Source: Methylococcaceae bacterium (GTDB taxonomy: Bacteria > Pseudomonadota > Gammaproteobacteria > Methylococcales > Methylomonadaceae). Taken from it: DNA of 34,724 nucleotides. A program made the translations under genes and the position numbers. The notes beneath the pieces were generated by a model, which saw nothing but the letters and a program-made list of their open reading frames with translations, was not told the origin of the DNA and ran no database searches. The stretch is taken from positions 1-34,724 of the forward strand of contig SXIP01000134.1 in the NCBI GenBank assembly GCA_005772825.1, read 5' to 3'. Below are positions 1-23,923 of the stretch, piece after piece; the first letter of the stretch is position 1, and every line of letters begins with the position of its first letter.

Positions 1-39
1 ACCCCGGGGTCGGTGGTTCAAGTCCACCTATCGCCACCA
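1..39 (+). tRNA. tRNA gene, 3' portion only (anticodon outside window)
   Basis: The T arm is visible as stem GGTGG (12-16), loop TTCAAGT (17-23) and stem CCACC (24-28). It is followed by acceptor strand TATCGCC (29-35), discriminator A36 and an encoded CCA (37-39). The bases before it fit the 3' side of an anticodon stem (CCCCG, 2-6) and a five-base variable loop. The anticodon is cut off by the window edge, so the amino acid cannot be named; the T arm resembles CAU-type (Met/Ile2) tRNAs. An integrase gene follows, so this tRNA end is the likely integration target. Confidence 0.88.
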
Positions 40-523
40 TAAAAATCAATAAGTTAGCAGTATGTATAACGCAAATTCCCAATCAATGGGACACTGGCGG
101 GACATTTCAAGACAACAGATCACAACAATACCACCCTTTTCTGGGTTAAAAACACACTCATCTCTGGCTGATAAAATCGGCTGCTCTTATGGCATTAACT
201 GCTACCCCCAAAAACCACTAAGAACCAACTAAAGTCAGTGTTTTTGGTCATTGTTGTCCCATAAGTGTCCCATTGAAAATTTTAATTTAAGTAATTATAT
301 TAATTTCAAGGTCTTGATTAGTCTAATCATGGGAATACTAATCCCGTGCTTGTTATTTATTGTGAAGTGTTGTACTGTTTTCTTGACAATTGCAAAAACA
401 TTTATCACTAAAGCAGGTTAAAACGGGGCGACCAACACCGTCAAACCCTATAACCAATCACTTAACAGACAGGTTAAGCAATGGCTACCGAAGATTATAC
501 CGCCATTGTCCCAAGGGGCTTAC
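40..523. other. Attachment-site region: candidate integrase arm sites and excisionase sites
   Basis: No gene is credible in these 484 bases. GGGACA occurs twice on the plus strand at 88-93 and 99-104, 11 bp apart. Its complement TGTCCC occurs twice at 255-260 and 266-271, also 11 bp apart. The two pairs form a long inverted match: CAATGGGACACT at 84-95 equals the reverse complement of 264-275. A further TGTCCC lies at 507-512. Between them are a 15-bp palindrome TGATTAGTCTAATCA (315-329) and another CTAATC at 338-343. A perfect -35 hexamer TTGACA (383-388) is present, but only weak -10 matches follow it. The arrangement resembles arm-type integrase sites and excisionase sites next to a tRNA attachment core; this role is inferred. 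Confidence 0.55.
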
Positions 524-3574: not shown

Positions 3575-3888
3575 TGAATACCGCCCAACCATTGACACCC
3601 AGCACCGACGTGGATATTCTTTGCCCACTTCTGAAAAAAACAGGAGTCGGGAGTCGCACCCCGCGCAAAGGCCACAACAGGCCACTATCAAACGTGGTTT
3701 TTTTGTACCCATCAAAAACACAGGCGGCATTATGCCGTTTGTTATTCATTATGGTGGGATGTATTGAGCAGCCCTTAAAAAGGCTGGCCGGTTCCTTTGC
3801 CGGTAGTGCGAACTTGATACATTCCACCGCCCAAAGAATCGCACCAATGGGCGGCGGCTTAATCCCTCTACAAAGGAAACCGCAATGA
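3574..3888 (+). CDS. Ash family protein (P4-satellite type)
   Basis: This is a 104-aa protein. The pattern KKTGVGSRTP (residues 22-31), a hydrophobic middle part, and LAGSFAGSANLIHSTAQRI near residues 71-90 is the hallmark of the Ash family found in P4-like satellites and prophages. The family's biochemical role is not well established; in P4 the ash region overlaps the immunity RNA. The DNA here also carries short inverted repeats, for example CGGCA/TGCCG at 3725-3737 and CCGG/CCGG near 3789-3804. A structured immunity-type RNA could therefore be embedded, but I cannot demonstrate it. The start shares TAATG with Rha and the stop shares ATGA with a 39-aa ORF. Confidence 0.75.
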   Translation: MNTAQPLTPSTDVDILCPLLKKTGVGSRTPRKGHNRPLSNVVFLYPSKTQAALCRLLFIMVGCIEQPLKRLAGSFAGSANLIHSTAQRIAPMGGGLIPLQRKPQ

Positions 3889-7462: not shown

Positions 7463-7720
7463 ATGGAAACTAAAGTGGGTGTAAAAGAATTCCGGGCACA
7501 TTTGCCTTCGTATCTGGAGTCCGTGTCTCCGATCGCGATCACTCGTCACGGGGAAACAATCGGCTATTACATTCCGGCACGCCATGGCCGCAACCAGGCA
7601 GAGCTGGATGCGCTCAAACAGGCGGCGGCGAAATTGGAGGCCATGATGTCCGCTTTACGCGTATCAGAAGATGACATTGTGGATGACTTCAAGACACGCC
7701 GCACGACTGCCAAGCGATGA
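7463..7720 (+). CDS. Phd/YefM-type antitoxin
   Basis: This 85-aa protein opens with the Phd/YefM DNA-binding module: KVGVKEFRAHLPSYLESV, then PIAITRHGETIGYYIPA. A helical C-terminal tail (residues 45-85) follows that would wrap and inhibit the toxin. AAAGAGAG precedes the ATG, and the stop overlaps the PIN gene start by four bases (ATGA). The promoter upstream overlaps a palindromic operator, the usual autoregulatory arrangement. The pair probably stabilises the integrated element or the neighbouring defence island. Confidence 0.92.
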   Translation: METKVGVKEFRAHLPSYLESVSPIAITRHGETIGYYIPARHGRNQAELDALKQAAAKLEAMMSALRVSEDDIVDDFKTRRTTAKR

Positions 7721-8139
7721 GTCGTCAAGCTCTGGTGCTTGACGCTAATATTCTTGTCCGTGCGGTGCTGGGCCACCGGGTATTTAAGCTGTTGAACCAG
7801 TACTCCGGTACGACGGCGTTCTTTGCACCCGACGAGGCTTTTGCGGATGCCGAGAAGTATCTCCCGCCAATCTTTGCTGCGCGTGGTCTGGACTGGGGCG
7901 TCGGTGCTGCGGTACTGAGCCGATTGCCAACGCTGGTGCAGTGTATCGAATTTGATGTCTACAGCGAATTCGAGACCAGCGCGCGTCAACGTATCCGAGA
8001 CGTTCGTGACTGGCCGGTATTGGCCACCGCGCTGGCCTTGAACTGTCCAGTATGGACGGAGGATCAGGATTTCTTCGGCAGCGGAGTAGCCACCTGGACC
8101 ACCAGCACCGTAACGATGTATTTGATTGGCGCTGAGTAA
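7717..8139 (+). CDS. PIN-domain toxin (VapC-like ribonuclease)
   Basis: This 140-aa protein has PIN-fold acidic residues in order: D9 in LVLDANILV, acidic positions in DEAFADAEKYL (39-49), D95/D98 in RDVRDWP and E115-D116-x-D118 in WTEDQDFF. These would bind the metal ions for RNA cleavage. It follows its antitoxin with a four-base overlap. The TEDQDFFGSG ending is typical of the PIN subfamily paired with Phd-like rather than VapB-like antitoxins. Target RNA cannot be inferred. Confidence 0.9.
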   Translation: MSRQALVLDANILVRAVLGHRVFKLLNQYSGTTAFFAPDEAFADAEKYLPPIFAARGLDWGVGAAVLSRLPTLVQCIEFDVYSEFETSARQRIRDVRDWPVLATALALNCPVWTEDQDFFGSGVATWTTSTVTMYLIGAE

Positions 8140-8290: not shown

Positions 8291-9454
8291 TTGAAAATTC
8301 CAGCCTATCTTGATTACGCGGCAACAACGCCTATGGCGCCGGAAGCCGTCGATGCAATGCTGCCCTACCTGACAAGTTCCGGCAATTTTGCCAATGCGGC
8401 ATCAAGCCAGCATAGTTATGGCCAGAATGCCGCTTCAGCCATTGACAACGCCCGTTCAGAAATGGCCCATGGCTTACGGTGTAACCCCAAAGATATTATC
8501 TTCACCTCCGGCGCAACCGAATCCAATAACTTGGCCCTCAGCGGCTTCACGTTGGGACACCGAAACCGGGGCAAGCACATTGTTACGTCAGCCCATGAAC
8601 ACAAGTCAGTGCTGGATTGTTGCCGCCACCTTGAATCGCAAGGCATCAAAGTCACTTACCTACGTCCAAGCGGTGACGGTTTATTGACAATAGACAGCAT
8701 CCTCAATGCCGTTACCGACGAAACCGTGCTGGTTTCGCTGATGCACGTCAATAACGAAACCGGCGTCATGCAAGACATCGGGCGCATAGCCGATGCCCTG
8801 AATGAGAAAGGCATAACATTCCATGTTGATGCCGCCCAAAGTGCCGGCAAAGTACCGATTGACTTGTCAGCCATGCCCATTGATTTGCTGTCGCTGTCCG
8901 CTCATAAGTTCCACGGCCCTAAAGGTATTGGTTGTTTGTATGTCCGCAAACGGAAACAAGCCGGACTGACACCCTTGTTCTATGGCGGTGGGCAGGAATA
9001 TAGTCTGCGGCCCGGCACATTACCGACTCATCAAATAGTCAGTATGGCGGCGGCTTTTTCTTTGGCTTGTGAGAGGCAGGAAGCTGATGCAGAACATTGC
9101 CGACAATTACGGCAAACGTTGCGTACCGTTTTAGGCAAGCTCGATGGCGTTCACTGGAATGGCGATCAAAATGATGTCATTCCTCATATTGTTAATGTCA
9201 GTTTTGAGGATGTCGGTGCCGATGCACTGCTAATCGCCCTACGCGACAACGTTGCCATTTCTTCCGGGTCAGCCTGTAACAGTGGGGCTATCGAACCTTC
9301 ACATGTACTGAGGGCAATGGGCATTGAGGGTGATCGGTTGTATGGGGCGGTCAGAATCAGTTTTGGCCGTTACACGACAGCAGCCGAGATGGAACAGGCC
9401 GGGCAAAGCATTGGCGAAGCCGTGATCCGCTTGCGCAAATGGGCAGCAGAATAA
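8291..9454 (+). CDS. dndA: Cysteine desulfurase, DndA/IscS-like
   Basis: This 387-aa PLP enzyme takes sulfur from cysteine as an enzyme-bound persulfide. Family landmarks are all present: N-terminal PAYLDYAATTP, GATESNN (74-80), AHEHKS with H104, HVDAAQSAGK (178-187), PLP lysine K206 in SLSAHKFHGP, and catalytic C329 in SSGSACNSG followed by PSHVLRAMG. The start is TTG at 8291. No in-frame ATG lies before it back to an upstream stop, and the N-terminus aligns with the family. The ribosome-binding site is weak. It sits directly before a phosphorothioation-type methyltransferase and faces an operon with a DndC-like enzyme, so it is likely the sulfur donor for DNA modification. IscS-type housekeeping function is less likely, as no isc genes are near. 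Confidence 0.93.
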   Translation: MKIPAYLDYAATTPMAPEAVDAMLPYLTSSGNFANAASSQHSYGQNAASAIDNARSEMAHGLRCNPKDIIFTSGATESNNLALSGFTLGHRNRGKHIVTSAHEHKSVLDCCRHLESQGIKVTYLRPSGDGLLTIDSILNAVTDETVLVSLMHVNNETGVMQDIGRIADALNEKGITFHVDAAQSAGKVPIDLSAMPIDLLSLSAHKFHGPKGIGCLYVRKRKQAGLTPLFYGGGQEYSLRPGTLPTHQIVSMAAAFSLACERQEADAEHCRQLRQTLRTVLGKLDGVHWNGDQNDVIPHIVNVSFEDVGADALLIALRDNVAISSGSACNSGAIEPSHVLRAMGIEGDRLYGAVRISFGRYTTAAEMEQAGQSIGEAVIRLRKWAAE

Positions 9455-12009
9455 CCATGCTGGGCAAGAAAGTCCTTAACCATTATTACTGGCATTGTAG
9501 CCTGACCGCAGCACAAGACGAGGTAACCAGGGAACGGGTTGCCCAAGCCGAAGCACTAGCCGGCTTGCAGGCCGACAAGGATTATAACGTCATCAAATAT
9601 CCAAGTAACGGACACTATGTGTCATTACTGTCTTATGCCGACTTTTTCGATAGCTCGTTTCCGGCCTTGCTGTACAGCTACCGTATTGACTTCCTCACGG
9701 GGCGGGTCGAAAAGCGCAATTACCAAGATTCAGCTAACCCGCCCATCCTGCACCGCAAAGAGCTTTTGCTCCATGCCGACCATCCCCGCCAGGCCGAATT
9801 CCGTGAGTTGACGCAGACCGCCGAACAATTGGGGCTGTTCGACAATCCCGTGACTATTGGCTTCCAAAAAAACTGGGAAACGCTGATTGCCGCCAGTGGC
9901 TTTCAATTGCTAAACGATCAATTTGTCGCTCTAGGAAACCAAGAAGAAGGAAACTCGACGCCTTTTGAGAAACCGGAAACCGCAATGGTCGCCAGGCATC
10001 TGACCGCCTTGTCCCGCAATAACCTGTCGGCGCCGATGCAATGCCTGGCTCGGCATGGTTATTTGGACGGAACCTTGTCCGTTTTCGACTATGGTTGCGG
10101 GCGAGGTGACGACATACGCAACTTGACTGCCAACCAGATCAATGTGTCCGGTTGGGACCCGCACTATGCACCGGAAAATCCAAAACACCCGGCGGATATA
10201 GTCAATTTAGGTTTCGTAATCAATGTCATCGAAGATGTTCAAGAACGCATCGAAGCCTTGGCGGGCGCATACCAATTAAGTCAACGCCTGTTAGTGGTCT
10301 CAGCGATGCTGGTCAACCAAAATGCCTTCAAAGGACTAGCCTTTAATGATGGTGTGTTGACGCAGCGCGGCACATTCCAAAAATATTTCAGCCAAGCCGA
10401 ATTGAAAAGTTTTTTGGAGGATGTGCTGGACAGGGAAGCCATTCCGGTTGCGCCCGGCATCTTCTATGTATTTAAAGATGCCGATTCCGAACAAAGCTTT
10501 TTATTGGGGCGGCAACGCAGCACCCGTAATACGTTTATGCCCCAGAGGGTACTACGGTTATCTGCCCGTCCCATACGACCAGAAGCCCCAAAAATATCAC
10601 GCTCCACACAGAGGTACCATCTCCATCAAACCCTAATCGAACCACTTTGGCAACAGGCCTTGATGTTAGGCCGTTTGCCCGAAAAAAACGAAATTGCCAA
10701 TCCTTTGGCACTCACCGAAGGCTTTGGTTCGGTCAATAAAGCCTTGCGTTATCTGCTCGAACACACCGAGCCGCCGCTACTGGAACAAGCACGGCAAACC
10801 CGCATTAACGACTTGTTGACCTATTTTGCTTTGCAGACCTTTTCCAGACGCAAACCCTATAAACATTTAGACAGCAGCTTACAAAACGACATCAAAGCCT
10901 TTTTCGGCGATTACCCGCAAGCCATCAGCCAAGCCCAAGCCGAACTGTTCCAACTCGGCAAGCCCGAACGCATTGCCGCCGCATGTCAACAAGCCGCCGA
11001 ACAAGGGTTGGGCCATCTTGATACAGAAGCGGCCTTGCATGTCCACAGCAGCCAAGTCAACGAATTGCCTGTGCCGCTAAGGATTTATGTTGGTTGCGCG
11101 ACCGTGCTTTATGGCGATATTGAACAGGCCGATTTAATAAAAATCCACAGCCAATCCGGCAAGCTCAGCCTAATGCGCTACGATGATTTTGAAGGCCGGC
11201 CGCTACCGCGTTTGTTGGAACGGGTCAAAATCAACTTGCGGGAACAGACTTTTGACCTTTACCAGTACGGTGAAGACTATGAGTCACCCTATCTGTATTT
11301 GAAATCCCGTTTCATTAACGAAGAATTCCCTTATTACGCCGAACAGGCGTATTTTGAAGAGCAAATCCAAACCCTAGGGCTGTTCGACTTCTCAGCTTAC
11401 GGCCCGAACCCCAATGACTTCCAGGAAACCTTGGCAAACGCCCGTTGGGCTATTGACGGCTTCCAACTGGTGCGCAGCCAAACCTTGCCTGACATAGACA
11501 GCCTATGCGGACGTTACCTCAGCTACCGCCAATTGCTGGAATGCGGCGAAACCCAACACGCCACGGGACTACCAAACCTGCCCAAGCAACCGGACAGCTA
11601 CACCGCCTTGTATGAACTGGCAACGCACATACTCGACCCAATCATTGACTACTTCGGCATGATCCGCCTCACCTACGGGTTTTGCTCCCACGAACTCGGC
11701 AAACACATCAAACACCGCGTAGCCCCCAAACTCGACCAACATGCCGCACATGAACGCAACAGCAAAGGTAATTTGATTTGCCCACGTTTAGGCGCAGCGG
11801 TTGATTTTATCGTCGATGATGAAAACATGCGTGAAGTCGCCGATTGGATAGCGGCCAACACATCGTTTGATAGGTTGTATTTTTATGGCGAAAACCGGCC
11901 AATACATGTTAGCTTTGGGCTGGAGTTTAAGGGGGATTATATTGAGCTGGTGATGATGGGGAGTGGGAAGCTAGTGCCACAAAGAAACTTTCAAGAAAAT
12001 AAAAGGTAA
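9439..12009 (+). CDS. DNA phosphorothioation-associated putative methyltransferase
   Basis: This 856-aa protein resembles the large putative methyltransferase that accompanies dnd loci. A SAM-binding motif VFDYGCGRGDD lies at about 215-225. An acidic strand end follows in NVSGWDP (about 235-241), then ADIVNLGFVINVIED. The flanking 180 N-terminal and roughly 550 C-terminal residues are family-specific with no assigned function. It may methylate DNA at or near modified sites, but its substrate is not known to me. The longest frame starts at ATG 9439, inside the desulfurase end; ATG 9457, 2 bp after the desulfurase stop, is equally plausible. No other methyltransferase, and no PglX, is present. 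Its stop is 3 bp from the end of the opposing kinase gene. Confidence 0.88.
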   Translation: MGSRITMLGKKVLNHYYWHCSLTAAQDEVTRERVAQAEALAGLQADKDYNVIKYPSNGHYVSLLSYADFFDSSFPALLYSYRIDFLTGRVEKRNYQDSANPPILHRKELLLHADHPRQAEFRELTQTAEQLGLFDNPVTIGFQKNWETLIAASGFQLLNDQFVALGNQEEGNSTPFEKPETAMVARHLTALSRNNLSAPMQCLARHGYLDGTLSVFDYGCGRGDDIRNLTANQINVSGWDPHYAPENPKHPADIVNLGFVINVIEDVQERIEALAGAYQLSQRLLVVSAMLVNQNAFKGLAFNDGVLTQRGTFQKYFSQAELKSFLEDVLDREAIPVAPGIFYVFKDADSEQSFLLGRQRSTRNTFMPQRVLRLSARPIRPEAPKISRSTQRYHLHQTLIEPLWQQALMLGRLPEKNEIANPLALTEGFGSVNKALRYLLEHTEPPLLEQARQTRINDLLTYFALQTFSRRKPYKHLDSSLQNDIKAFFGDYPQAISQAQAELFQLGKPERIAAACQQAAEQGLGHLDTEAALHVHSSQVNELPVPLRIYVGCATVLYGDIEQADLIKIHSQSGKLSLMRYDDFEGRPLPRLLERVKINLREQTFDLYQYGEDYESPYLYLKSRFINEEFPYYAEQAYFEEQIQTLGLFDFSAYGPNPNDFQETLANARWAIDGFQLVRSQTLPDIDSLCGRYLSYRQLLECGETQHATGLPNLPKQPDSYTALYELATHILDPIIDYFGMIRLTYGFCSHELGKHIKHRVAPKLDQHAAHERNSKGNLICPRLGAAVDFIVDDENMREVADWIAANTSFDRLYFYGENRPIHVSFGLEFKGDYIELVMMGSGKLVPQRNFQENKR

Positions 12010-12012
12010 AAG

Positions 12013-14355
12013 TCAGTCAGGTTCTGCATATTTTTCATTTTCGAGGGTAATAAGTGTTTTCAGTTCTTCAATGGTATGCCGTTTCCAATCATCAGGAGAT
12101 CTAGAAAATTTCCCTGTTTGAAGGTGCTTTAAGATAATAGAAAGAAATATGTCATGGTTATTCTCTATAAAATTATCCAACTTTTCCCCACTGTTGCTTC
12201 CCAAAATATTCATATGAGGAGTAAATTCGAACAATTTAGCCGAATATGGACAAAACTCGCTTGAGAATGTGTCTAGATCGATTAGCAGAAGATTTCCACT
12301 TTCGTCCATAACCAACACGCCACCCGTATCGTCATTTCCTTGGATCAACACATCGTGAATGTAATTCTTATCCAGAATACTAAGGGCAATCCTTGATATT
12401 CGCCTTGAATTAATTCCAAAGTTAATTTTAATATCTTCGCTAACATCAGACACTAAACTCAAGACGGCTTTTTTTATTGCTTCTGTTTTATTAACTGCTC
12501 TATTAAATCCCCTAATAAATAAGGCTTCCTTTGCCTGATTCTTCTCTTCGTAAAAACCTTCAAATAATTCCGAAGAACTCCACATCGTCCTTCTCTTTAC
12601 AAATCTGTAATCTAAATTCAAGAAGTATGAATTCAAAGCGCCCACACAGATTTGAATCTCAAACTCAAAACTGCTATTTGGTGCATCTGATGGTTCTACG
12701 TCTTCAAGCAATGACCGAAAATCATAAGTATCGAGACATTTACAAATTATTTCTTCCCTATCGCGAATGGTAGGATCGTTAGGCATTTCTGTAGTATTGC
12801 GAGCGTAATCAATAATCCAGTTTTGCGGAATTGAGTATTTTTCATCTGGAGCTATTGTGATTAGCTTTATTCTCTCAATAAATGATGCAAACCTCTCACC
12901 TGTTCCTAAATTTTCGTGTAGCCTATCATAAGGGTCAAAAATGTATTTATCTTGATCTATTTTGAAATAAATCTTATCTAGATCATTATTGTAGAAGGAA
13001 ATCTTTGGAAATATGACATAGTTACCAAAATGATTTACGGTAACTTCTTTTGCATTATCTGGGATTTGAACGTCATCGTATTCAGTATAATTTACTTTCC
13101 ATCGTTCAATATAAGTATCCTCGTCAATTTGTAGATACTCATCGTAGGCTCTTCTAGAGTAGGGTTTTCCATTTCCGTCTTTTGCCAAAAAGAAATTGTC
13201 GTTTTCCAAGTAGAAGTGATTCCACTGAACATCTTCATAAAGATTTAGGTGTAACCGTTTTGGTATAACTACTATCTTGTATCCGAAATCAAGTTCAACT
13301 TTATTATTTGAATAGGCTTTGGCAGCATGAAGATCTAAACCTCCTCCGTTTGGAAAGAAAGTATGGTTAAGTCCGCGTGTTTTTCCGACAACGTCAAGTA
13401 TTCGCCCAATTTCTTTGGGATCGTCCCAAACGATTGTTTTAGGTCTTGAGGCCACGATTTCTCGCAATAGAAGCTCCCATTCAACTTTAGATATTTGCTC
13501 TATATCGTTAGATAGCCAAGTTTCTAATTGGGCTGCAACTTCCTTGGCTGTGGGTCTTTCCTCTGGCGAGTTTGAAGTACATTTACTAAGTACCTCATGC
13601 AAGATACCCAGATACGAGTGACCATCGAAATTATGAATTTTGGTATTTAAACTGATGCTGACGTCAAGATAGTTATAGCGTCCTTCAAAAGACATTGGTG
13701 TATCGGTCAGGATGATCCATAGTGTTTTCGCAAGTGAGTACACATCAGCTTGAAAGGGGTCGGCATCAAATGGATTTCTCTCCATTTCTGGGGCAATTGT
13801 TGTCCAAGGGCCAATTCGTTTCTCATCCTTGCTTATTGCTTTTTTGTTTTGAAAATGCACTAAGCCAAAGTCGCCAAACTTAAACTCTGAATCATGTTGA
13901 TAGATATTTGACGGTTTAATATCTCTGTGAGCAATTTCATGATCATGCAAAACTGCTAGCGTACTGAATAAGCTTTGAAAACATTGAACTATATCGTCGA
14001 GTCCCTTAAAGGCAACTTTATCGAGACAAGTTGCGTAGGGCATGACATAGTAAAGAAATGTCTCTTTTCTAACTACATTAGGAAGTTCACTATATTGAAA
14101 AATAGGCAGAATGCCTGAAATATTTTCTTGATTATTTAAAACTACTGATACTTCATCTCGAAACCTTGCATATTTCTTTTTTTCATACTCCAGAGTCAAT
14201 TGACCATTTCTGTCGAAACGCAGATTAATTTTTTTAAAGACATATTCGGTATTGGGTATTCTATATACAGTGCCGTTACCACCTTTTCCAACAAAGGATT
14301 TTTTACAAGAAATACTTTTTTGTAAATCTTCATCGGCTATGATTTTATGTTCCAT
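12013..14355 (-). CDS. Eukaryotic-like Ser/Thr protein kinase with large C-terminal extension
   Basis: This 780-aa protein is last in the BREX-like operon. The N-terminal 300 residues are a complete kinase: glycine loop GKGGNGTV (23-30), lysine in VFKKI (41-42), catalytic HRDIKPSN (143-150), DFG (162-164) and APE (188-190). The middle part (about 310-640) is unassigned. Near 666-696, IHDVLIQGNDD...LLLIDLDTF resembles the catalytic loop and metal motif of aminoglycoside-phosphotransferase-like kinases; this is tentative. AAGGA precedes the ATG, 21 bp after the brxL stop. The gene is visibly AT-richer than its neighbours, suggesting separate acquisition. PglW in type 2 BREX is also a kinase, so a signalling or effector role is plausible. 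Confidence 0.88.
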   Translation of the reverse strand: MEHKIIADEDLQKSISCKKSFVGKGGNGTVYRIPNTEYVFKKINLRFDRNGQLTLEYEKKKYARFRDEVSVVLNNQENISGILPIFQYSELPNVVRKETFLYYVMPYATCLDKVAFKGLDDIVQCFQSLFSTLAVLHDHEIAHRDIKPSNIYQHDSEFKFGDFGLVHFQNKKAISKDEKRIGPWTTIAPEMERNPFDADPFQADVYSLAKTLWIILTDTPMSFEGRYNYLDVSISLNTKIHNFDGHSYLGILHEVLSKCTSNSPEERPTAKEVAAQLETWLSNDIEQISKVEWELLLREIVASRPKTIVWDDPKEIGRILDVVGKTRGLNHTFFPNGGGLDLHAAKAYSNNKVELDFGYKIVVIPKRLHLNLYEDVQWNHFYLENDNFFLAKDGNGKPYSRRAYDEYLQIDEDTYIERWKVNYTEYDDVQIPDNAKEVTVNHFGNYVIFPKISFYNNDLDKIYFKIDQDKYIFDPYDRLHENLGTGERFASFIERIKLITIAPDEKYSIPQNWIIDYARNTTEMPNDPTIRDREEIICKCLDTYDFRSLLEDVEPSDAPNSSFEFEIQICVGALNSYFLNLDYRFVKRRTMWSSSELFEGFYEEKNQAKEALFIRGFNRAVNKTEAIKKAVLSLVSDVSEDIKINFGINSRRISRIALSILDKNYIHDVLIQGNDDTGGVLVMDESGNLLLIDLDTFSSEFCPYSAKLFEFTPHMNILGSNSGEKLDNFIENNHDIFLSIILKHLQTGKFSRSPDDWKRHTIEELKTLITLENEKYAEPD

Positions 14356-14376
14356 GTACTTTTCCTTAATGATTTT

Positions 14377-15777
14377 TTAATAAACCCTCAACTCCGCCGA
14401 AAACTCATGTGGGTCTAGTTCAGCCAATTGCGACCTGACTCTTGCCCTTAAATCCTTAGCCGGATTCAATACATAATTTTCATAATCAGGATGTTCAGGA
14501 TTGAGCAGCAGTAATTTTGATAAAGCTGTAGCAAGGCGGGACACGGCTTTGACATCGCGGCTATCGCCTGTCAGGTTGGGCGGTTTGCCGAACGGGAATT
14601 CGGCAAAACTGACTGTCCGCAGTTGATGCAGGTATTCACCAAACACATCAGCTTTTATGCCAAAACCTTGGGCGGCGTTTTGGGTTTCAAAGCGCGGTAT
14701 TTTCCAACCAGGAATAATGCCGTGAAAACGATCCATTAAGGCGCTTTCATGAAACATGTCCGGCAAATGGCGGATATAGTCGCTTTGCCGAGGCCGCCCC
14801 AGATACAAATCAATATTCGCCAACACAATCAACCCGCATTCACTGGTGATTTTATCGTTGCCGATGCTGAAATGACCGGATTCCAAATAGTCTTTAAACT
14901 TGGCTTGAATGTCGTCCTCGCCCTTAAAGCTAATCGACTGGCCTTCATCGAGTACCAATAAATCATGGCGGCCTAATAAACCCACTTCCTTAGTGTTTAG
15001 GTTTTTAAACAGTTGCGCTTGGGTTAATGCGCCGCCGCTGTTTAGCCAAACATAACGGCTTAAGTTTGAATAAATGAACGATTTGCCCGTGCCTTTTGGG
15101 GCCAGTTCCATTAAATTCAGGTTGTTTTGCAATAGCGGCAATAAGCGCAAGATGACATGGTTTTGCTGGTCTTCGTTATAAGCTGCAGGTTCGTAGCCCA
15201 TCGTCCTCAGCAACAAAGCTATCCATTCCCGCGTGGTAAATTCTTCCCGCGCTTTTACCAACTGTTCAAGCCGAACTTTGCCGGATTGCATAGGGTGGAA
15301 TTCGGTCAGCTCAATCACGTTTACTTTGCCTTCAGGCCGGACAAACAAACGGCCTGCACCCCATTGACCACCTTCTAATAGAATTTGGTTGGCATTTAAT
15401 ACGTCATCAGATACTCGGGCGTTACGTTCATCCAGGCAAGGGATGGTCAATAGTTTTTCGCCTTTCTTAATGTCTATGCGGACATCAAAGCGATCCAGCA
15501 AAACAATGGATTCGCCTGAATGTAAGCGGTATTTGATTTTTTCTTTTTCATTTTTGGCGGGCAAATGCCGGCTCATAAAGTCGGTTATCGCTTGATAAAT
15601 CTCCGCGTCCGTTTGATCAGGTTTTTTAAAACGGGAAATTAGCCATTCTTCAACAAAACTGGGAATGGTGCGTTTTTCACGGATTTTTAAGTGCCGGACT
15701 AATGCCTTATCAATGGTCAATTCACCGAAAGCGGCGGCAATTTTTGCGTCGAGTTGTAGCGGGTCTATAGCTGTCAA
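14377..15777 (-). CDS. brxL: BREX Lon-like AAA ATPase BrxL (short form)
   Basis: This 466-aa AAA+ ATPase has Walker A in ELAPKGTGKSF (226-233), Walker B in LLVLDEGQ (273-280), and an arginine-finger-like MDRFHGIIPGW (348-358). These residues and the surrounding LNTKEVGLLGRHDLLVLDE context are characteristic of BrxL. The protein stops after the ATPase module, at QLAELDPHEFSAELRVY. The roughly 680-aa BrxL proteins of type 1 continue into a Lon-protease-like domain. A shorter BrxL family of about 450 aa exists, so this is probably a natural short form rather than a truncation. The start overlaps the PglZ stop by four bases. BrxL is needed for phage exclusion in other BREX types. Confidence 0.92.
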   Translation of the reverse strand: MTAIDPLQLDAKIAAAFGELTIDKALVRHLKIREKRTIPSFVEEWLISRFKKPDQTDAEIYQAITDFMSRHLPAKNEKEKIKYRLHSGESIVLLDRFDVRIDIKKGEKLLTIPCLDERNARVSDDVLNANQILLEGGQWGAGRLFVRPEGKVNVIELTEFHPMQSGKVRLEQLVKAREEFTTREWIALLLRTMGYEPAAYNEDQQNHVILRLLPLLQNNLNLMELAPKGTGKSFIYSNLSRYVWLNSGGALTQAQLFKNLNTKEVGLLGRHDLLVLDEGQSISFKGEDDIQAKFKDYLESGHFSIGNDKITSECGLIVLANIDLYLGRPRQSDYIRHLPDMFHESALMDRFHGIIPGWKIPRFETQNAAQGFGIKADVFGEYLHQLRTVSFAEFPFGKPPNLTGDSRDVKAVSRLATALSKLLLLNPEHPDYENYVLNPAKDLRARVRSQLAELDPHEFSAELRVY

Positions 15778-18041
15778 AACATGTCCTCAAAACTTTGCGT
15801 ACCCGCATCTTTTTCAAGCAATGACGCAGGAAATTTAACCGTTAATAATTTATGGTCTTGTTCATGAACTCCAGCATAGTGATAAGACAGCAAGACCTCG
15901 ATTTCAGTAAAGCCTTCTTGTTCTTGCGTGGAGCTGAAGCGTAGCATTAAGTTTTGGGTTTTATTCGCCCTTAGGCTATCCACATTTCCCTTACCTGAAA
16001 AAGGCGAGGCCAGGCTGATTTCAATTGTTGTCAAATCTTTATCATGATTGATAAGTTGCATTTCTATTTGCCATTGCCGATCTGCCACCCGCACACATTG
16101 GTTATCCGGCAATTTAATTTCTAATGGAGTGACCCCAACTTGAGAGGGCTTTGAAGCCAATGTAATGCAGGGTATCAGAACTTCTTCTGGGGTAAGTCCG
16201 CCATGCGCCAGTAAACCTTTAGGGGTCAGCCTACACCGTTGTTTAGATACGGCATATTCACCTAGCAACGCAAAATCATCGGGCAAGGATGTTGCGCCTT
16301 TTAATTTGAAAGCTCTATCTTTGCATTCACTTAAGGTCTGGCCTTGGTAAATACTTTGGGTGACGGTCATGCCATGATCGGCAGTGATAAAAAACACAAT
16401 GTCTTTGTTAAGCAAGGCAGCATCTTTTTCCCAACGGTTCAACATGCGTTTGATTTGGCTCATGATCGGTTGAATATCATCGCGGTGTTTACTGAAACTA
16501 GGGCAATCATGCAAGCGTTCATCCAGACGGTTTTCAAAATACACCAACAATTGCGTTGCTTCATCAATGCGTTCAGAATTTTCCGACCAACTTTTAAGCA
16601 CTTTAAGAGAGTCCGGCGTAGGCAAATAATCTTGATAAACTTGGCGTAGGATAGCTTCCTGATTCCCAGGCGGTTGTTGGTTGACAGGCAAACCCGTCAA
16701 TACAGCCATTTTACCCACCTCAGTCAATGTGGGTAGCGGCGCAAACAACTGCTCCTGATGCAAAACCAATCCGTTCATCCCTTGCAACATCTGCACCACT
16801 TTATCCTGATTCATTGCCGATAAAGCATCAACCATAATGATGACAGCCACATAGCCCTGCTGTAGATAGGCCTTTACTTTAACAGAAAACTGCCGCCAAT
16901 CGTGTTTTGAGCGGGGCACACGCGCAGATTGTGCTGCCAGCAACCAGTCTGTAAAACTGCGATTGATAGCTTCATCTAAATTATGTTTATCCAAAAACGC
17001 TTGTCGGCAATAATCAAAATACCCCTCACTCCAATTGATTGCCTCATCAACCGTAGCGGAGGCATCTAACAAAGGATAGCCATCCAGGCATTTCTGTAAT
17101 GCTTCAGATAATATCTGAGCCTGTCCACTACTGAACGTGTGCAGTTTGGTCAATAAAGCAGGGGTCAGCAATTCACGGCGACCAGTAACCCGCTCTTGTA
17201 CGGCATCAAGCAAGCTAGGCCAATCAATCAGCCAATCGGCTAGGGTCTCAGGAGGGGCCTCATCGGCATGAATTTTCCGGTCAATCGCATCCAGCGCAAG
17301 CAAGTATTTATCAACCAATCCATTGGCCTGGTCTTCAGGCAATGGAATCACAGGCAATGCTAGCAACAAAGCGGAATCGGATGTTTTCGGTGGTAAAGCG
17401 AGGTTGAGCTGATGGGCACTGATAACACCCCGCAAATGCTCCAAATGCTGTTGATAAGCAAAATGTTTGAAGAATGTAGCAGGACTTTGTGCCTTAAGCC
17501 ATTCACGGACAAACCACTGTGCAGATTTTAGTTCAAATCCCAAAGCCGAAATCAAATATTGGCAAAAAGCGTCCTTGAGAGGCGCAATTTTCAATATGAC
17601 GTGCAGGATCATGCCTTGACGGCTTAATATCTCAATAAAATTTTGATAATTAATATCCGGTAATTCAGGAAGACAAGCTTGCAATATGCTTTCTGCAAAC
17701 TGTTCCTCACTGTTTGGAGCGATGAAGGCTTTTTGTAACAAGCCCAATTTGACGATCAACTCATTGCTAAGCCAATCGTGGGGATTTACATTACATTTTT
17801 GCGCGAAGATGACCCTGGGTATGAGTTGTAAGGTCGGCAAGACACCGTTATAGCCTTCATAATGCTTAAAACGTTGCCATAAAGCTTGATTGCTTAAACG
17901 CACTCTTAACAAAGTATCCGTCTTAGATTTCAAGTGCTGGTCGATCTGTTGCATCACGGGCAAAACATCGCCAGCCATTTTAACAACCACCGCATCATGG
18001 TTGTCTATATTGAATTCATCGCGGATAAGCTGTACAGGCAT
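15774..18041 (-). CDS. pglZ: PglZ-domain alkaline-phosphatase-superfamily protein
   Basis: This 755-aa protein carries the hallmark domain of BREX/Pgl defence. Metal-binding landmarks lie in the C-terminal half: VIIMVDALSAM (about 401-410), LPTLTEVGKM (436-445, candidate nucleophile region), FITADHGMT (551-559) and LAHGGLTPEE (611-620). The N-terminal 390 residues are helical and unassigned. PglZ proteins are thought to hydrolyse phosphoester bonds, possibly on DNA or nucleotides; the substrate is not settled. The start lies 4 bp after the stop of the BrxC-like ATPase, and the stop overlaps brxL, so the three are tightly coupled. Confidence 0.95.
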   Translation of the reverse strand: MPVQLIRDEFNIDNHDAVVVKMAGDVLPVMQQIDQHLKSKTDTLLRVRLSNQALWQRFKHYEGYNGVLPTLQLIPRVIFAQKCNVNPHDWLSNELIVKLGLLQKAFIAPNSEEQFAESILQACLPELPDINYQNFIEILSRQGMILHVILKIAPLKDAFCQYLISALGFELKSAQWFVREWLKAQSPATFFKHFAYQQHLEHLRGVISAHQLNLALPPKTSDSALLLALPVIPLPEDQANGLVDKYLLALDAIDRKIHADEAPPETLADWLIDWPSLLDAVQERVTGRRELLTPALLTKLHTFSSGQAQILSEALQKCLDGYPLLDASATVDEAINWSEGYFDYCRQAFLDKHNLDEAINRSFTDWLLAAQSARVPRSKHDWRQFSVKVKAYLQQGYVAVIIMVDALSAMNQDKVVQMLQGMNGLVLHQEQLFAPLPTLTEVGKMAVLTGLPVNQQPPGNQEAILRQVYQDYLPTPDSLKVLKSWSENSERIDEATQLLVYFENRLDERLHDCPSFSKHRDDIQPIMSQIKRMLNRWEKDAALLNKDIVFFITADHGMTVTQSIYQGQTLSECKDRAFKLKGATSLPDDFALLGEYAVSKQRCRLTPKGLLAHGGLTPEEVLIPCITLASKPSQVGVTPLEIKLPDNQCVRVADRQWQIEMQLINHDKDLTTIEISLASPFSGKGNVDSLRANKTQNLMLRFSSTQEQEGFTEIEVLLSYHYAGVHEQDHKLLTVKFPASLLEKDAGTQSFEDMF

Positions 18042-18045
18042 CGTA

Positions 18046-21000
18046 TTACTCGTAGTCAGCTAAAACAGCCCGTAATGCTGCCGTGATGTCGCCATTTGAT
18101 AGCCCACACCCCTGAATGTATTTTTGCAGCAAAAAAACTAACTGCTCTTTTGTGGTAATCGGTTCGGCAACACGGTTTTCTGGAGAATAGACGCGCGGAG
18201 CCTGTTGATGATGTTCAACTAAAGTTTTTAGTATTCCTCGACATTCGCCAATTTCAGTTTCCGTGCAATGTTCGGTCGGTTTGTTTAAGAACGCCTGGGT
18301 AATTTTATCAGGACAAATTTCGTCAATTTGCCCATGCTCCTCAAGTAATCGGGCGAAGGCTTTCGCTTCAATGCTGGCAGAATCATGGTTTAAATTGGCA
18401 ATCAGTTGGCTTTTGGTTTCCTGGCTGTTTGGTAAAACTGATTGCACCGTTTGCTTTAGCTCATGGTGCTTGGCGTGGCTGATGCGCTCGAAATCATCAA
18501 GTAGCTCTTTTAATTTACCCTGCCCTTCATTAAGAATAGAACTTTCACTTGCATTATCAAGCACGACTAATTTAAGCAAAAACTCGGCTACATCTTGTTG
18601 GCTTTTACCAATCTGCTGTAAAAATTTGATCAACTCTTTAGTTTGTAGATGTAGTTGCCCCGAGCTCTTAACTGCATCGGGCTGTTCATTAATGAATTTG
18701 CGTAAGGCTTGCACCACTTCGATGGCAAAATCTTCATAAGATTGCTGATCCCCCTTCTTTAATTTAAAGAAATGGCTGAGTGCGGACAATATAGCCAATT
18801 GCTTAGTGCTAAATTCAAAGCGCCTGATTGTTAATTTGCTGTTCTGGTCAAAAGCGTCAGTCAGATTTGTGGCGAAGTCTCTTTCATTCGTACTTCCCCA
18901 ACGCAAGCGTTTAATGTCATCGCGCACGGCAACCGCTGCAAATAAAGCCAAGGTACAGGCAGGCAAGCCATACGGCGGGGCAACCAGCTTGTCGCGCAAT
19001 TCTTTGACTAAATAGGGCTGTTCACGCTTACGCAACAAGTTATCGTGCAACAGTTTTAAAACCTCTTTCACCTTCCCGTCGGTTTCATCAATTTTTCTAA
19101 TGTCCCAACAACCTGTAGGTGGTCGCTCGATAAACAAGCGGTTAACCCCTAACACGCCATCAATCAGTGCCGATGGCTCGCTGGTTTCATTGGCTTCACC
19201 CAGCAAATCGGTCTGATACGTCGGGTTAGTGGCAAAGTCCAGGATGCGCTCTACGATTTTTTGTACCTTGCTGCTGCCTGTGTACTTTTCGTCGTTCAAC
19301 TTGTTCATATTATTGGCACGGATGGGGATTTCCTGACTATATTCAGCCTGCACCTGCCCTGCAAGAAAGCCTCTGAACTCGTGCCAATTATTACAAGCGA
19401 TGGCGTTTGTCGTTCCTGCCTGATGAATTGAACACTTGCCGGCTACCAAGCCGTCGCGACCGTATAACAGCCTTAATACCTGCACTAAATCTTGGCGGTT
19501 TTTCTCCCATTTGGCTGTCAACTGGCGGCGCACATCGTCACTGGCAGTTTTTTCTTTCAACAATAATTGCAAAACCAAATAACGGCACAGTAATCCGGTC
19601 AAATTAAAATTTCTGCCTTCAATGGTGACGGTTTCGGAATAAATGCCCGCCGTTGGCAACCAAAAATACAACGGACTAAGCTTCATTTCCGCAATTCTGG
19701 ATTTGACAATCCCAACATCTTCGGCAGTTTCCGCTAACACCAGCTTAACCTTGGCGCTTAACGTCAGATTATCCAATTTCAATTGGTTGCTAATGGGCGG
19801 CGTCAACAGACTGACTTGATAAGAGCGGACAATCCCGCAAATCGAAGGCTCCAAATCATGGACGCCAATCATGGGCAACACGTCTGCTAGCATATCGGGA
19901 TGGTCGTTAAACAAAGTTTCGGCACTACGCCCTGCGAACAGCGCCAACTTATCAGGGATCAATTTTTCGACATCAGCACTCGCTTCACCATGTAAAAGCC
20001 ATTCTCCTGTCATGTCATTTTTCCAGACTAAACCGACTGCTTTCAGCCAAGCCAAATCGTCAGCCAGCTTTAAAGCCGCAGACGTGTTCGGTTTGGTATC
20101 GTATAAAGCACAGGACAAAAACAATTCGGTAGCCTGAAAATTGTCTCCCAGCAATTGCGCCAACAATAACAACTTTAAGATGTTGTGTTTGGCCTGCAAT
20201 TCTGCGGCGGGCAAATCGGCCGGAATTCGCGCTAATGCACGTTGATAACGGTTCCAGTCGTTAGCCGCTTTTTCTTTCAGGTTGTCGGCATAATAATCAG
20301 CCAAAGCAGGTAGCCTAACCAATCCATCGCCTAACAAAGCGTCAGGACGGAGTTCCCTGGCCAACAGCTTGCCCGCATTGTCACGGAAGAAGGTTAAAGC
20401 CGTCCGGTTAGACTGGGCAAAATCAGACAGAGCGAACAAGCCAGCCGCCATGACCGGGTGCAGCGGATAGACTTCTTTCAGCATATCGGCCAGATGGGGG
20501 CCTAAGATTTTAAATAGCGGTAATGCCGCACAACTTTCCAATAGGGTTTGCCGCTCTGTAATCGCCTGTTGCCAGCATTGTTCCCCTTGCAGCGTCCAAG
20601 TTTTTTGCATCGCCAACAAATGATAACCCTCGCTTTCAGAGGCATTCAGTTCAATCTTAAACGGTCTGTGAAAACGTCCGGCAATGGTTTCCAAACGATT
20701 TTTGATGGAATGATTAGCTGCTGTTCTAGTCGCATATTCAACAAAAGAAACATGGGTTAAACCAATAAACACCGTGTGACCTTGCCTAGGTTTACAGACG
20801 GTTTCGACAAATGTCTGTAATGCCATAATTTCCTGCACAGGGCGACGGTGTGGGTTGATGATTAAATCTTCCAGCGCATTGCCAAATTCATCCCAAACTA
20901 CCAAAATGCCGCCAAAACCGTGTTGCTCGGCCAAGTTCTTACCCGCTTCTTGATAAGCCTCAATAAAGTTTTTGCCGCCGTGGCTAGCCGGATTAAAAGC

Positions 21001-21690
21001 AGCCCTTAAACAGACTTTTTCATGCCAATACTTGAATACCTCTAATGCCTGTGGCTGATGCTGTTTCAAGCCTGTCCGCATTTCCGCAGTCGTCAAATAA
21101 TGTTCAGCCAATTGCCATTGCGACAAATCGGTGTTGGCAAGTGAGGGATCCCCCGCTGTAATTTCTTCAAAACGCTGAATACAAACATCATATTCCGTCG
21201 TCGGTAAAATGTTTTTCGGGTCAAACGTAGGATGCCGGATTAGCGCATCGTACAAACCTTCATACAATTTTGCCGCCAAGGATGGCGTTTCTGAACCATA
21301 GAGCGTGACCAGCAAATAGGGTCTAGCGTCCGGGTCGTTCCCCGCTAGAAAGGTATGCCGCAATTTTTCCGCCAAATCCTTATGTTCCGCATTACTTAAG
21401 CGTTGGAAAAACCCGGAAAATTCGGCACTACCGGCACCATCGCGGAATAATTGCGCGATTAACACGGCAAGATGGCTTTTGCCTGAACCGTAATTGCCAA
21501 ACAAGTTGATGGCCCGCATTTCTTGGGTAGCCTCGGGCAATACAGCTTTTTGCAAATGCGCCAGTACCGCTGTCGATGCCTTAGTCGGCGCAAAACAGGC
21601 CACTAAATTCGGGTTAGCAATATTGCGGTCAAGTACGACAGCCGCATCGGTTTGCGCGGCGTTGATTTCAATCAAGTCGGAAACGTGCAT
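18046..21690 (-). CDS. brxC: BrxC/PglY-like large P-loop ATPase
   Basis: This 1214-aa protein has Walker A GNYGSGKSH at 65-73 and Walker B ILVVWDEFGN at 262-271. The rest is largely helical and charged, as in PglY/BrxC, the large ATPase of BREX systems. It directly precedes pglZ with 4 bp between them. The start shares TGATG with the stop of the small upstream gene. The opening residues (VSDLIEINAAQTDAAVVLDRN) are typical of this ATPase group. It probably uses ATP to drive assembly or movement of the modification/exclusion complex on DNA. A second ATPase of similar size and domain position is encoded at 23924-27313; they differ too much for recent duplication. Confidence 0.88.
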   Translation of the reverse strand: MHVSDLIEINAAQTDAAVVLDRNIANPNLVACFAPTKASTAVLAHLQKAVLPEATQEMRAINLFGNYGSGKSHLAVLIAQLFRDGAGSAEFSGFFQRLSNAEHKDLAEKLRHTFLAGNDPDARPYLLVTLYGSETPSLAAKLYEGLYDALIRHPTFDPKNILPTTEYDVCIQRFEEITAGDPSLANTDLSQWQLAEHYLTTAEMRTGLKQHQPQALEVFKYWHEKVCLRAAFNPASHGGKNFIEAYQEAGKNLAEQHGFGGILVVWDEFGNALEDLIINPHRRPVQEIMALQTFVETVCKPRQGHTVFIGLTHVSFVEYATRTAANHSIKNRLETIAGRFHRPFKIELNASESEGYHLLAMQKTWTLQGEQCWQQAITERQTLLESCAALPLFKILGPHLADMLKEVYPLHPVMAAGLFALSDFAQSNRTALTFFRDNAGKLLARELRPDALLGDGLVRLPALADYYADNLKEKAANDWNRYQRALARIPADLPAAELQAKHNILKLLLLAQLLGDNFQATELFLSCALYDTKPNTSAALKLADDLAWLKAVGLVWKNDMTGEWLLHGEASADVEKLIPDKLALFAGRSAETLFNDHPDMLADVLPMIGVHDLEPSICGIVRSYQVSLLTPPISNQLKLDNLTLSAKVKLVLAETAEDVGIVKSRIAEMKLSPLYFWLPTAGIYSETVTIEGRNFNLTGLLCRYLVLQLLLKEKTASDDVRRQLTAKWEKNRQDLVQVLRLLYGRDGLVAGKCSIHQAGTTNAIACNNWHEFRGFLAGQVQAEYSQEIPIRANNMNKLNDEKYTGSSKVQKIVERILDFATNPTYQTDLLGEANETSEPSALIDGVLGVNRLFIERPPTGCWDIRKIDETDGKVKEVLKLLHDNLLRKREQPYLVKELRDKLVAPPYGLPACTLALFAAVAVRDDIKRLRWGSTNERDFATNLTDAFDQNSKLTIRRFEFSTKQLAILSALSHFFKLKKGDQQSYEDFAIEVVQALRKFINEQPDAVKSSGQLHLQTKELIKFLQQIGKSQQDVAEFLLKLVVLDNASESSILNEGQGKLKELLDDFERISHAKHHELKQTVQSVLPNSQETKSQLIANLNHDSASIEAKAFARLLEEHGQIDEICPDKITQAFLNKPTEHCTETEIGECRGILKTLVEHHQQAPRVYSPENRVAEPITTKEQLVFLLQKYIQGCGLSNGDITAALRAVLADYE

Positions 21691-22178
21691 CAGGACAATC
21701 CTTGCTTTATTGCGGTCGTTTTAGTCGATACCCATAATTTGACAGGTAAACCGAACAACTCACGACCGATAAAATACTGCTGATTAAGTTCGGCAAACTC
21801 ATTGTTTTCTACAAACACCACAATGACAGGGTGGCAGTTTTGTCTCGCGCTGAGTGCTGACCAAAACGCTTGCTTGTCGGTGATAGGCCAAGACAGCCAC
21901 CAATAATGAGGCTGCTCGATAATGAGGCCATTGCGCGAGGCATCGAAAACCTCGGCGATAAATTCAGGGCGGGAGCAGGAAACAGGCGGTCCTGCGGATT
22001 CAGGACAACCGCCTCGCCAAACCGTGTAATCCGGAAATAATGCCGTTAAGGCATTGGTTACAGAATCCAATTCATCCAACGCCTTGCAGGAAAAAGCCAA
22101 ATGACGGTAGCGGATTTCAGGGGCATGGTAAGTGGCAAGGACATCCATTAAAGTCTGGATCAATATCTCTGTTTGCAT
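21690..22178 (-). CDS. Unknown 162-aa BREX/Dnd-operon protein
   Basis: This 162-aa soluble protein lies between a DUF4007 gene and the BrxC-like ATPase. The central part contains PHYWWLSWPITDKQAFWSAL (109-128). It is followed by a beta-rich HPVIVVFVENN segment and YFIGRELFGLPVKLWVSTK near the end. It has two to four cysteines but no clear metal motif, and no membrane segment. By position and size it could play the part of BrxB-like small proteins of other BREX types, but I see no real sequence match. The stop overlaps the ATPase start (TGATG), arguing for a stoichiometric partner of that ATPase. Confidence 0.8.
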   Translation of the reverse strand: MQTEILIQTLMDVLATYHAPEIRYRHLAFSCKALDELDSVTNALTALFPDYTVWRGGCPESAGPPVSCSRPEFIAEVFDASRNGLIIEQPHYWWLSWPITDKQAFWSALSARQNCHPVIVVFVENNEFAELNQQYFIGRELFGLPVKLWVSTKTTAIKQGLS

Positions 22179-22234
22179 GGTTTCGTTGCGCCTCGGTACA
22201 AATTAGGGGCTAGTCATAAATGTGAGAAAACGGC

Positions 22235-23101
22235 TTACAACCAAGTGTCTTCACCTTGTTGCAACAGCAATAACAAAGTCTTTTTAGGGTCGCAATCATC
22301 GGCAAAAGCCAGAGAGTCATTATTGACGGCTTCGTTAAAACTAAAATAGTCTGGCCATCGTTGGCTTTGGTGCATACGCCGTAATTGCAATCGTAACTCT
22401 TCGGGACGACTGCATAAAAAGTTAGCCAAGCCGATGCCCATTAATTCTGAGAAAGTGACAGTGGAACGGCTTTTTAACTGATGAAAACGCGACATAGCCA
22501 GGGCATGAATGACAATTTCATCGGTAAGTTTAGGAGAACCCAAGCGGACGCAAATGCCATCCTCACGAATTTTGCTAATCTCTATCAAGCCAAGATCAGC
22601 TAGGGGGCGGTTGTCCACAAACATCCGTCTAACACTGCTAATTAATGATTCCAATGTCGATTCTTTGTAAGTTTCTGCATTATCGTTTTGCAAAGTGCTT
22701 TGTATTTTTTCAAAATGCTGCTTTGAGCTAATCCAGTCTTTGGAAAGCGTATCTAAGCAAATAAAAAAACTTCTGTAAGGTTCGCTACTTGTAGAAAAAC
22801 AAGTTGCCAAATGGAACGCCCACCATGTTGAAGATTTATTTAACTCAGGATCGTTGTTATTTAGCGACAAACCGAAATCAGTTAATTCAAATTCTTTTGA
22901 TGATTTTCCATTCCTAATGATCTGTGCAGCGATCATCCAGCCTTTTATGGTTGATAACCTGTTTTTTCCGGCAATGAACTCAATCCTGGCTCGCCTCATG
23001 TTTTGGCTTGAAAATATTTCCCTATCTGTTTTGAGAATATTGATAGCTTTGCTAATCCACCAGCGAGATACTGGTTCACCTTCATTATTGATTAATGCCA
23101 T
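22235..23101 (-). CDS. DUF4007-type protein, divergent second copy
   Basis: This 288-aa protein shares the outline of the DUF4007 family. It has GKNRLSTIKGWMIAAQII as the counterpart of the GLGRNMVNALQYWLQ segment in the other copy, then FELTDFGLSL and a STWWAFHLATCF segment matching TIWIIHWRIAS. The N-terminal HETFP motif is replaced by RRARIEF. DUF4007 proteins have no established activity but cluster with DndC-like enzymes. GAGAG precedes the ATG, 16 bp after the stop of the PAPS-reductase gene. This gene and the next upstream one look AT-richer than the ATPase genes. Assignment to the family rests on segment similarity by eye. Confidence 0.75.
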   Translation of the reverse strand: MALINNEGEPVSRWWISKAINILKTDREIFSSQNMRRARIEFIAGKNRLSTIKGWMIAAQIIRNGKSSKEFELTDFGLSLNNNDPELNKSSTWWAFHLATCFSTSSEPYRSFFICLDTLSKDWISSKQHFEKIQSTLQNDNAETYKESTLESLISSVRRMFVDNRPLADLGLIEISKIREDGICVRLGSPKLTDEIVIHALAMSRFHQLKSRSTVTFSELMGIGLANFLCSRPEELRLQLRRMHQSQRWPDYFSFNEAVNNDSLAFADDCDPKKTLLLLLQQGEDTWL

Positions 23102-23117
23102 TTAATTACTCTCAGTC

Positions 23118-23918: not shown

Positions 23919-23923
23919 TACGC

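Follow-up and report, generated by a model that had tools for sequence, protein, structure and literature searches.

Tandem GGGACA boxes as predicted arm-type sites of a tRNA-associated tyrosine integrase in Methylococcales, and a residue-to-word relation in its relatives

Two pairs of GGGACA boxes are located between a tRNA gene end and a tyrosine integrase gene in a 34,724-nucleotide stretch of Methylococcaceae DNA (the window), and very probably they are arm-type binding sites for the element's own integrase. This prediction is based on the spacing of the boxes, their recurrence downstream of the integrase gene (int), their presence at both element ends in relatives, the co-variation of their sequence with integrase residues and a blind prediction of the sequence from the protein, each of them established by computation. 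Furthermore the comparison of 137 integrases suggests that six residues near the integrase start largely set the sequence of this handle. The initial annotation had proposed integrase arm sites here from the window alone, and the equal placement of the pairs in relatives, the downstream recurrence and the co-variation with the integrase N-terminal domain support that proposal well.

The window opens at the start of a contig (C118) of a fragmented genome, inside a tRNA gene, and its position 1 is where the anticodon loop of this gene would end. Positions 1-39 (+ strand) carry the 3' part of the tRNA up to the CCA, on the int side of the integration core. Most likely it is a tRNA-Met(CAT), a label given since the acceptor end is identical to that of the tRNA-Met in the relative L003, although the T arms of the two are unlike. 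No tRNA was called at the window start by ARAGORN because the contig begins within the gene, and the 5'-truncated Rfam tRNA match at 1-39 has 21.4 bits, under the cutoff of 29. The break at position 1, just past the anticodon loop, is near the start of the core that is repeated in relatives, hinting that a second core copy was present in the reads. The 484 bp between the tRNA and the integrase gene contain no convincing gene.

Pair A (88-104, + strand; copies at 88-93 and 99-104) follows the tRNA CCA after 48 bases and reads GGGACA-N5-GGGACA, which is a TGTCCC tandem on the - strand. Pair B (255-271) is the same arrangement inverted, with copies at 255-260 and 266-271 on the - strand and a TGTCCC tandem on the + strand, and it begins 269 bases ahead of int. 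Both pairs are exact, with a start-to-start spacing of 11 bp and opposite orientation, precisely as first described, and the longer inverted match reported around them was also recovered: its 22-nt arms at 83-104 (+) and 255-276 (-) are 86% complementary. Perfect GGGACA-N5-GGGACA occurs twice in the 3.7-Mb genome (77% complete), and these two copies are pairs A and B.

The integrase (524-1588, + strand, 354 aa) was recognized by Pfam PF00589 (E 1.1e-32) and by phrog_1 integrase (E 7.3e-65). The R..K..HxxR..H..Y residues of tyrosine recombinases are in place: R208, K233, H296, R299 and Y331 are invariant across 41 integrase sequences, and H322 is kept at 90% or more in the same set. In the predicted structure (pLDDT 86.9) strands at residues 2-8, 14-20 and 28-32 and a helix at 35-51 form a three-stranded sheet plus helix ahead of the core-binding domain. 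The N-domain (residues 1-34, encoded at 524-625, + strand) contains the contact candidates T3, E5, R7, A15, R17 and K19. A Foldseek search with this domain alone gave no match with E below 0.001, and its best VIA Z was 5.5, mostly with dsRNA-binding folds. Lambda Int is a tyrosine integrase with an N-terminal beta-sheet domain and with arm sites separate from the core; its N-domain is reportedly the subject of an NMR paper by Fadeev from 2009. Aligned as a whole, the window model matches lambda Int (1z1b_B) at residues 2-346 (Z 18.1, rmsd 10.7), whereas the sequence match spans residues 125-331 only, and the window sites are 11-bp tandems of another sequence.

Relatives of the integrase were collected from 311 genomes of the same order and from a single GTDB contig scan that gave 42 loci. 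Removal of duplicates from the 73 loci taken into the comparison left 58 distinct upstream regions; kinship among the loci inflates all counts given here. Without any motif presupposed, an exact direct 7-mer repeat at spacing 11 was detected in 45/58 upstream regions, against at most 10/58 at any other spacing from 7 to 40, none of 58 in the int coding sequence, and a mean of 1.55 (maximum 3) in 20 shuffles. In the relatives that most resemble the window in layout, one GGGACA pair is found 48 or 49 bases past the end of a tRNA gene (Met, Thr or Asn), and an inverted pair about 235-275 bp ahead of int.

The far end was analysed in 11 elements, for each of which 20 or 40 kb had been retrieved. 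Six of them (G187, G177, G195, G219, G084 and G114) contain a second, downstream copy of the tRNA part that runs from the anticodon region to the 3' end, and an exact GGGACA pair was found downstream of int in seven: beside the repeated core in G187, G177, G195, G219 and G084, and in G078 and G109, where no core was found. G162 and G160 have a downstream pair with one mismatch, G114 carries its own, different word as a tandem, and no tandem pair was found downstream of int in G163. Measured from the start of the repeated core as cut by BLAST, pair A is at 94-95 bp and the downstream pair C at 133-134 bp in G187, G177, G195 and G219; in G187 and in the window alike, pair A is 87 bases away from the base that follows the anticodon loop. 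Of 29 long loci, in which three elements are represented twice, 15 carry an exact tandem of their own word downstream of int, compared with 1 of 249 trials for the words of other elements, reverse-complement look-alikes being left out. In the G177 and G219 elements (loci L081-L082 and L086-L087) the tRNA 3' part is present in three consecutive copies, which suggests that elements are stacked in a single tRNA.

The expectation that the same repeats stand at the other end was thus borne out in relatives; for the window's element no such copy was seen in the window or the genome. A third GGGACA pair was found neither in the window nor in the 77%-complete genome, searches of both with the tRNA 3' end for attR were without result, and a pattern search with the 5' half of tRNA-Met for attR returned nothing. 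Arm sites on both sides of the core are accordingly seen in relatives, and the window contains the int side only. The right border could not be placed by synteny either, since the phosphodiesterase beyond the defence genes had one weak match among 60 other genomes of the family. In a class-wide draw, 8/369 genomes, the own genome included, match the integrase at E 1e-60.

Tandems with spacing 11 in relatives are made of other words as well, such as TGCGCCA, TGCGACA, TGCGTCA, TGCAACG, TGTCACG, TGTCCAC and more; there are about 20 different site words in the integrase family, and they track a handful of residues. Judged by eye, the integrase tree shows no grouping by word, and sorting the integrases by word aligns a pattern in their first 22 residues. 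Words were called for 104/137 integrases, 33/137 being without a word; in the TGGGACA and TGTCCCA classes the strand is ambiguous because these words are mutually reverse-complementary. When the variable columns among the 354 were ranked by their information on word bases 3, 4, 5, 6 and 7, columns 19, 19, 17, 7 and 15, respectively, came first, both with all 104 words and in a trimmed set; the link of residue 7 rests on few cases since base 6 varies in 5/81 representatives only. Integrases equal at residues 3, 5, 7, 15, 17 and 19 have the same word in 110/116 pairs over all 104 words and in 110/110 pairs in the trimmed set, from which L134, L152, L150, L130, L073 and L065 had been dropped after inspection for unclear register or strand; where the catalytic domains are less than 70% identical, the word is the same in 44/47 such pairs. 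Transferring the word by the six residues from integrases less than 75% identical in the catalytic domain gave it in 79/104 cases, while the closest catalytic-domain relative gave it in 28/104 and six random other columns in a mean of 10.5 (maximum 19, 30 draws). It should be emphasized that the column ranking, the 110/116 and the 79/104 are not blind, since the residues were chosen on the same data.

A blind test was provided by 80 further loci, which were fetched after the rules from residues 3, 7, 17 and 19 to the word had been set down, with L014 and L065 as the exceptions known at that time. G084, G114 and one copy of G078 were excluded from this hold-out because their sites were already known, and the second G078 copy (L105) was included. 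A rule covered 65/80 loci (15/80 were without one), and the exact predicted tandem was present in 41/65, compared with 15/585 in mismatched (off-diagonal) pairings; with at most one mismatch allowed there were 44 loci, against a permutation mean of 13.5 and a maximum of 23 in 10,000 permutations. Fourteen of the 24/65 misses belong to two contexts misread by the rules: the combination of R5 and Q19, where the word is usually TGTGAC, and that of V18 and R19, with words of the form TGGA..; another five are loci with R17 and K19 whose GGGACA pairs are imperfect. The recognition code is thus dependent on context. Within 520 bp an exact GGGACA tandem was found at 25/35 loci with R or Q17, K19 and R7, at 11/16 loci with R3 and E19 and at 4/86 others. 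For the window integrase TGTCCC (GGGACA) is to be expected because of its R7, R17 and K19, and the GGGACA seen agrees with the rule when read as TGTCCC.

The reach of these rules was followed in 12 more distant or viral loci for which upstream DNA was available and identity was at least 40%; nine of them had a full prediction by refined rules. The exact predicted tandem was present in three of the nine (L266, L269, L189) and a variant tandem in three (L265, L184, L186); no tandem was found in the other three (L264, L267, L185). L184 and L191, which have R17 and a residue 19 or context outside the early rules, show C at base 5 in one strand reading. The rules do not fit integrases below 40% identity (L203, L210-L212), and viral contigs supplied few close integrase relatives. 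The code is well supported inside the Methylococcales family, and more distant integrases fit it only partly.

On these grounds we consider it likely that the arm-binding domain reads its sites by a nearly readable code of six alternating residues on two beta-strands. Through substitutions or N-domain exchange, this code would evolve largely independently of the catalytic domain. Residues 3, 5, 7 and 15, 17, 19 alternate since residues 2-8 and 14-20 form two beta-strands in the predicted model, and this alternation would fit with one face of the sheet entering the major groove, by analogy with lambda Int. Each tandem would accommodate two neighbouring N-terminal arm-binding domains at a distance of one helical turn, which would read it in the major groove through beta-strands 1 and 2; GGGACACTGGCGGGACA is the putative DNA that the N-domain would contact via residues 3, 5, 7, 15, 17 and 19. 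With the word written as TGNNNCN, residue 19 (together with 3, 5 and 18) corresponds to bases 3-4, residue 17 to base 5, residue 7 to base 6 and residue 15 to base 7. Pairs A and B stand on the int side of the core, whereas the third pair C, known from relatives, is at the opposite end at a distance of about 133 bp from the core; the integrase may bridge the arm pairs to the core in the anticodon region of the tRNA, forming an integrative or an excisive complex. Physical binding, bridging and the direction of recombination are inferred here.

Other binders of the boxes have to be weighed. Recombination directionality factors, too, may have direct repeats at a distance of one helix turn as their sites, as a report on Apl of phage 186 describes (PMC7498355), and a conserved small protein of 78 aa, an excisionase candidate, is encoded near int (2556-2792, + strand). 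Family searches gave nothing firm on its identity: the match to PHROGs excisionase is weak (2/7 members, best E 0.23), and 6/7 members match DUF6462 (best E 0.0005). Relatives of this protein occur in 6/11 fetched elements, beside GGGACA-type sites in G187, G177, G160, G109 and G219 but beside another word in G114, and a search at E 1e-8 did not detect it in G163 or G195, both of which have GGGACA pairs. This distribution, and the tracking of the box sequence with integrase N-domain residues in the blind test and against the catalytic-domain controls, disfavour the excisionase as the GGGACA binder, and we regard it as very unlikely that the tandem boxes bind it instead of the integrase.

Just as improbable is that the boxes are operators of the int promoter, serving a repressor or an autorepressing integrase. 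Many relatives do have a pair at about -155 to -175, overlying promoter-like sequence, and in L060, L062, L063 and L066 an inverted TGTCCC pair occupies -152 to -162, the place of promoter-like sequence in other relatives, which suggests autoregulation by the integrase. Likewise, in the portion of the KplE1 prophage report on IntS and TorI that concerns attL, arm and excisionase sites beside the tRNA end overlap the intS promoter region (PMC2951348); the arm motif there, TAAA, differs, and the window pairs are upstream of the putative promoter. Both of them are about 80 bp or more away from it, a box copy stands far downstream of int near the other end in relatives, and autoregulation could be an added role instead of an alternative. 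That the repeats are due to chance or shared ancestry and have no function has almost negligible probability: single GGGACA hexamers indeed show no enrichment in the window, with 14 copies against 12.6 expected, but spacing and position are constant while the letters vary with the protein.

The CTAATC copies downstream of pair B fared differently. GATTAG at 316-321 and CTAATC at 323-328 and 338-343 are present as described, and CTAATC is not enriched in the window (17 found, 12.9 expected). Their reading as excisionase sites did not hold up: in the -260 to -150 region of the 35 loci whose integrases have R or Q17, K19 and R7, the window included, there are three copies in the window, one in L055 and none in the other 33 loci. 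Since absence of the repeats from relatives had been named beforehand as the refuting observation, CTAATC was rejected as a conserved motif. The first two copies are in an inverted repeat, TGATTAGTCTAATCA (315-329), the sequence of which is not conserved in relatives, and the third is in an imperfect palindrome, GGGAATACTAATCCC (331-345), a possible operator. At the place aligned to 331-345 several relatives have other palindromes (GGGATATATTATCCC in L003, GTGATTAGGTATCAC in L055), and a conserved -35/-10-like pair follows closely downstream of them. A palindrome with a score of 7 or more, counted as strong, is present in 6/35 loci and in 1.6% of shuffles; the best score in the window is 6, and at least one of the six strong ones, that of L123, is located elsewhere in the stretch. 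It is possible that the palindromes of 315-345 are an operator rather than excisionase sites; being specific to the element and upstream of the putative int promoter, they may indicate that operator specificity is also turning over.

This putative promoter, read by eye from the alignment, consists of TTGTTA (350-355) and TACTGT (373-378) separated by 17 bp (350-378, + strand). It is followed by a conserved int leader (414-523, + strand) with two hairpin-like inverted repeats and a short overlapping reading frame. The leader has a GGGC..GCCC-type hairpin with an inner GGTG/CACC and then CTTAAC..GTTAAG, some pairs of which co-vary. In the hairpin named by hand 75% of cells are paired, compared with 26-55% when the register is slid, and two of the nine outer positions are mostly unpaired; RNAalifold gave no structure on 136 rows of the leader, and its match to the Rfam R1162 plasmid antisense RNA is weak (22.8 bits, cutoff 55).

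The type of array described here is already known. The sections of the Cluster K1 mycobacteriophage study that deal with attP (CrimD, Anaya, Adephagia and Angelica) describe two arm-site pairs flanking the core, one of them inverted, and match arm-site differences to integrase N-terminal substitutions at 17 and 19 (PMC3203893). As presented there it is a suggestion from four phages, whereas here 104 words, several residue-base links and a hold-out test are available. A survey of tyrosine recombinases takes the arm-binding domain as a mark of mobile-element integrases (PMC8138268). In the open-access literature, subscription papers being mostly outside the coverage, the Cluster K observation was found and a larger arm-site code was not; a residue-to-word relation of this scale and predictive power was not found in the literature searched.

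Several observations concern the surroundings of the array. The integrase, a C4 antisense RNA and a primase gene occur together as in P4-like satellites; unlike there, defence genes follow in the window. At 3614-3834 the C4-type antisense RNA matches RF01695 with 61.3 bits, above the cutoff of 45, with c4-a1b1 and isrK-like matches below cutoff just before it, and it is flanked by a Rha/Ant-type regulator and the primase gene. The primase has a Toprim domain, and the next protein has no family match at E 0.001. A small overlapping two-gene pair (7463-8139), antitoxin-toxin-like by eye, precedes a mixed defence cluster (8291-28212) of SspA/DndA, SspD, two SspB-like proteins, BrxL, a weakly PglZ-like protein, a large P-loop protein weakly like BrxC and a kinase-like protein. 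These defence genes (8.3-28.2 kb) may or may not be cargo of the element, because its right end was not found. In relatives including L023, L045, L061, L118, L129, L153 and L154, a second 11-bp tandem stands about 400 bp upstream of int; its word differs from the own word in 23/23 loci, with 8.8% identity expected by chance, and it may be the distal end of an adjacent element that occupies the same tRNA. Elements sharing a tRNA may be under pressure to differ in their arm words, thereby avoiding mutual excision, a bolder idea that is not statistically significant in these counts.

Arm sites are short and hard to recognise, yet they help to decide the direction of recombination and the choice of partner. 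If the relation proposed here is true, arm sites would be predictable from the integrase sequence and could be re-specified in laboratory recombination systems, which suggests a possible route to orthogonal ones. The sequence of an integrase could then be used to locate the ends of tRNA-borne islands, and this family makes the arm specificity of integrases directly testable.
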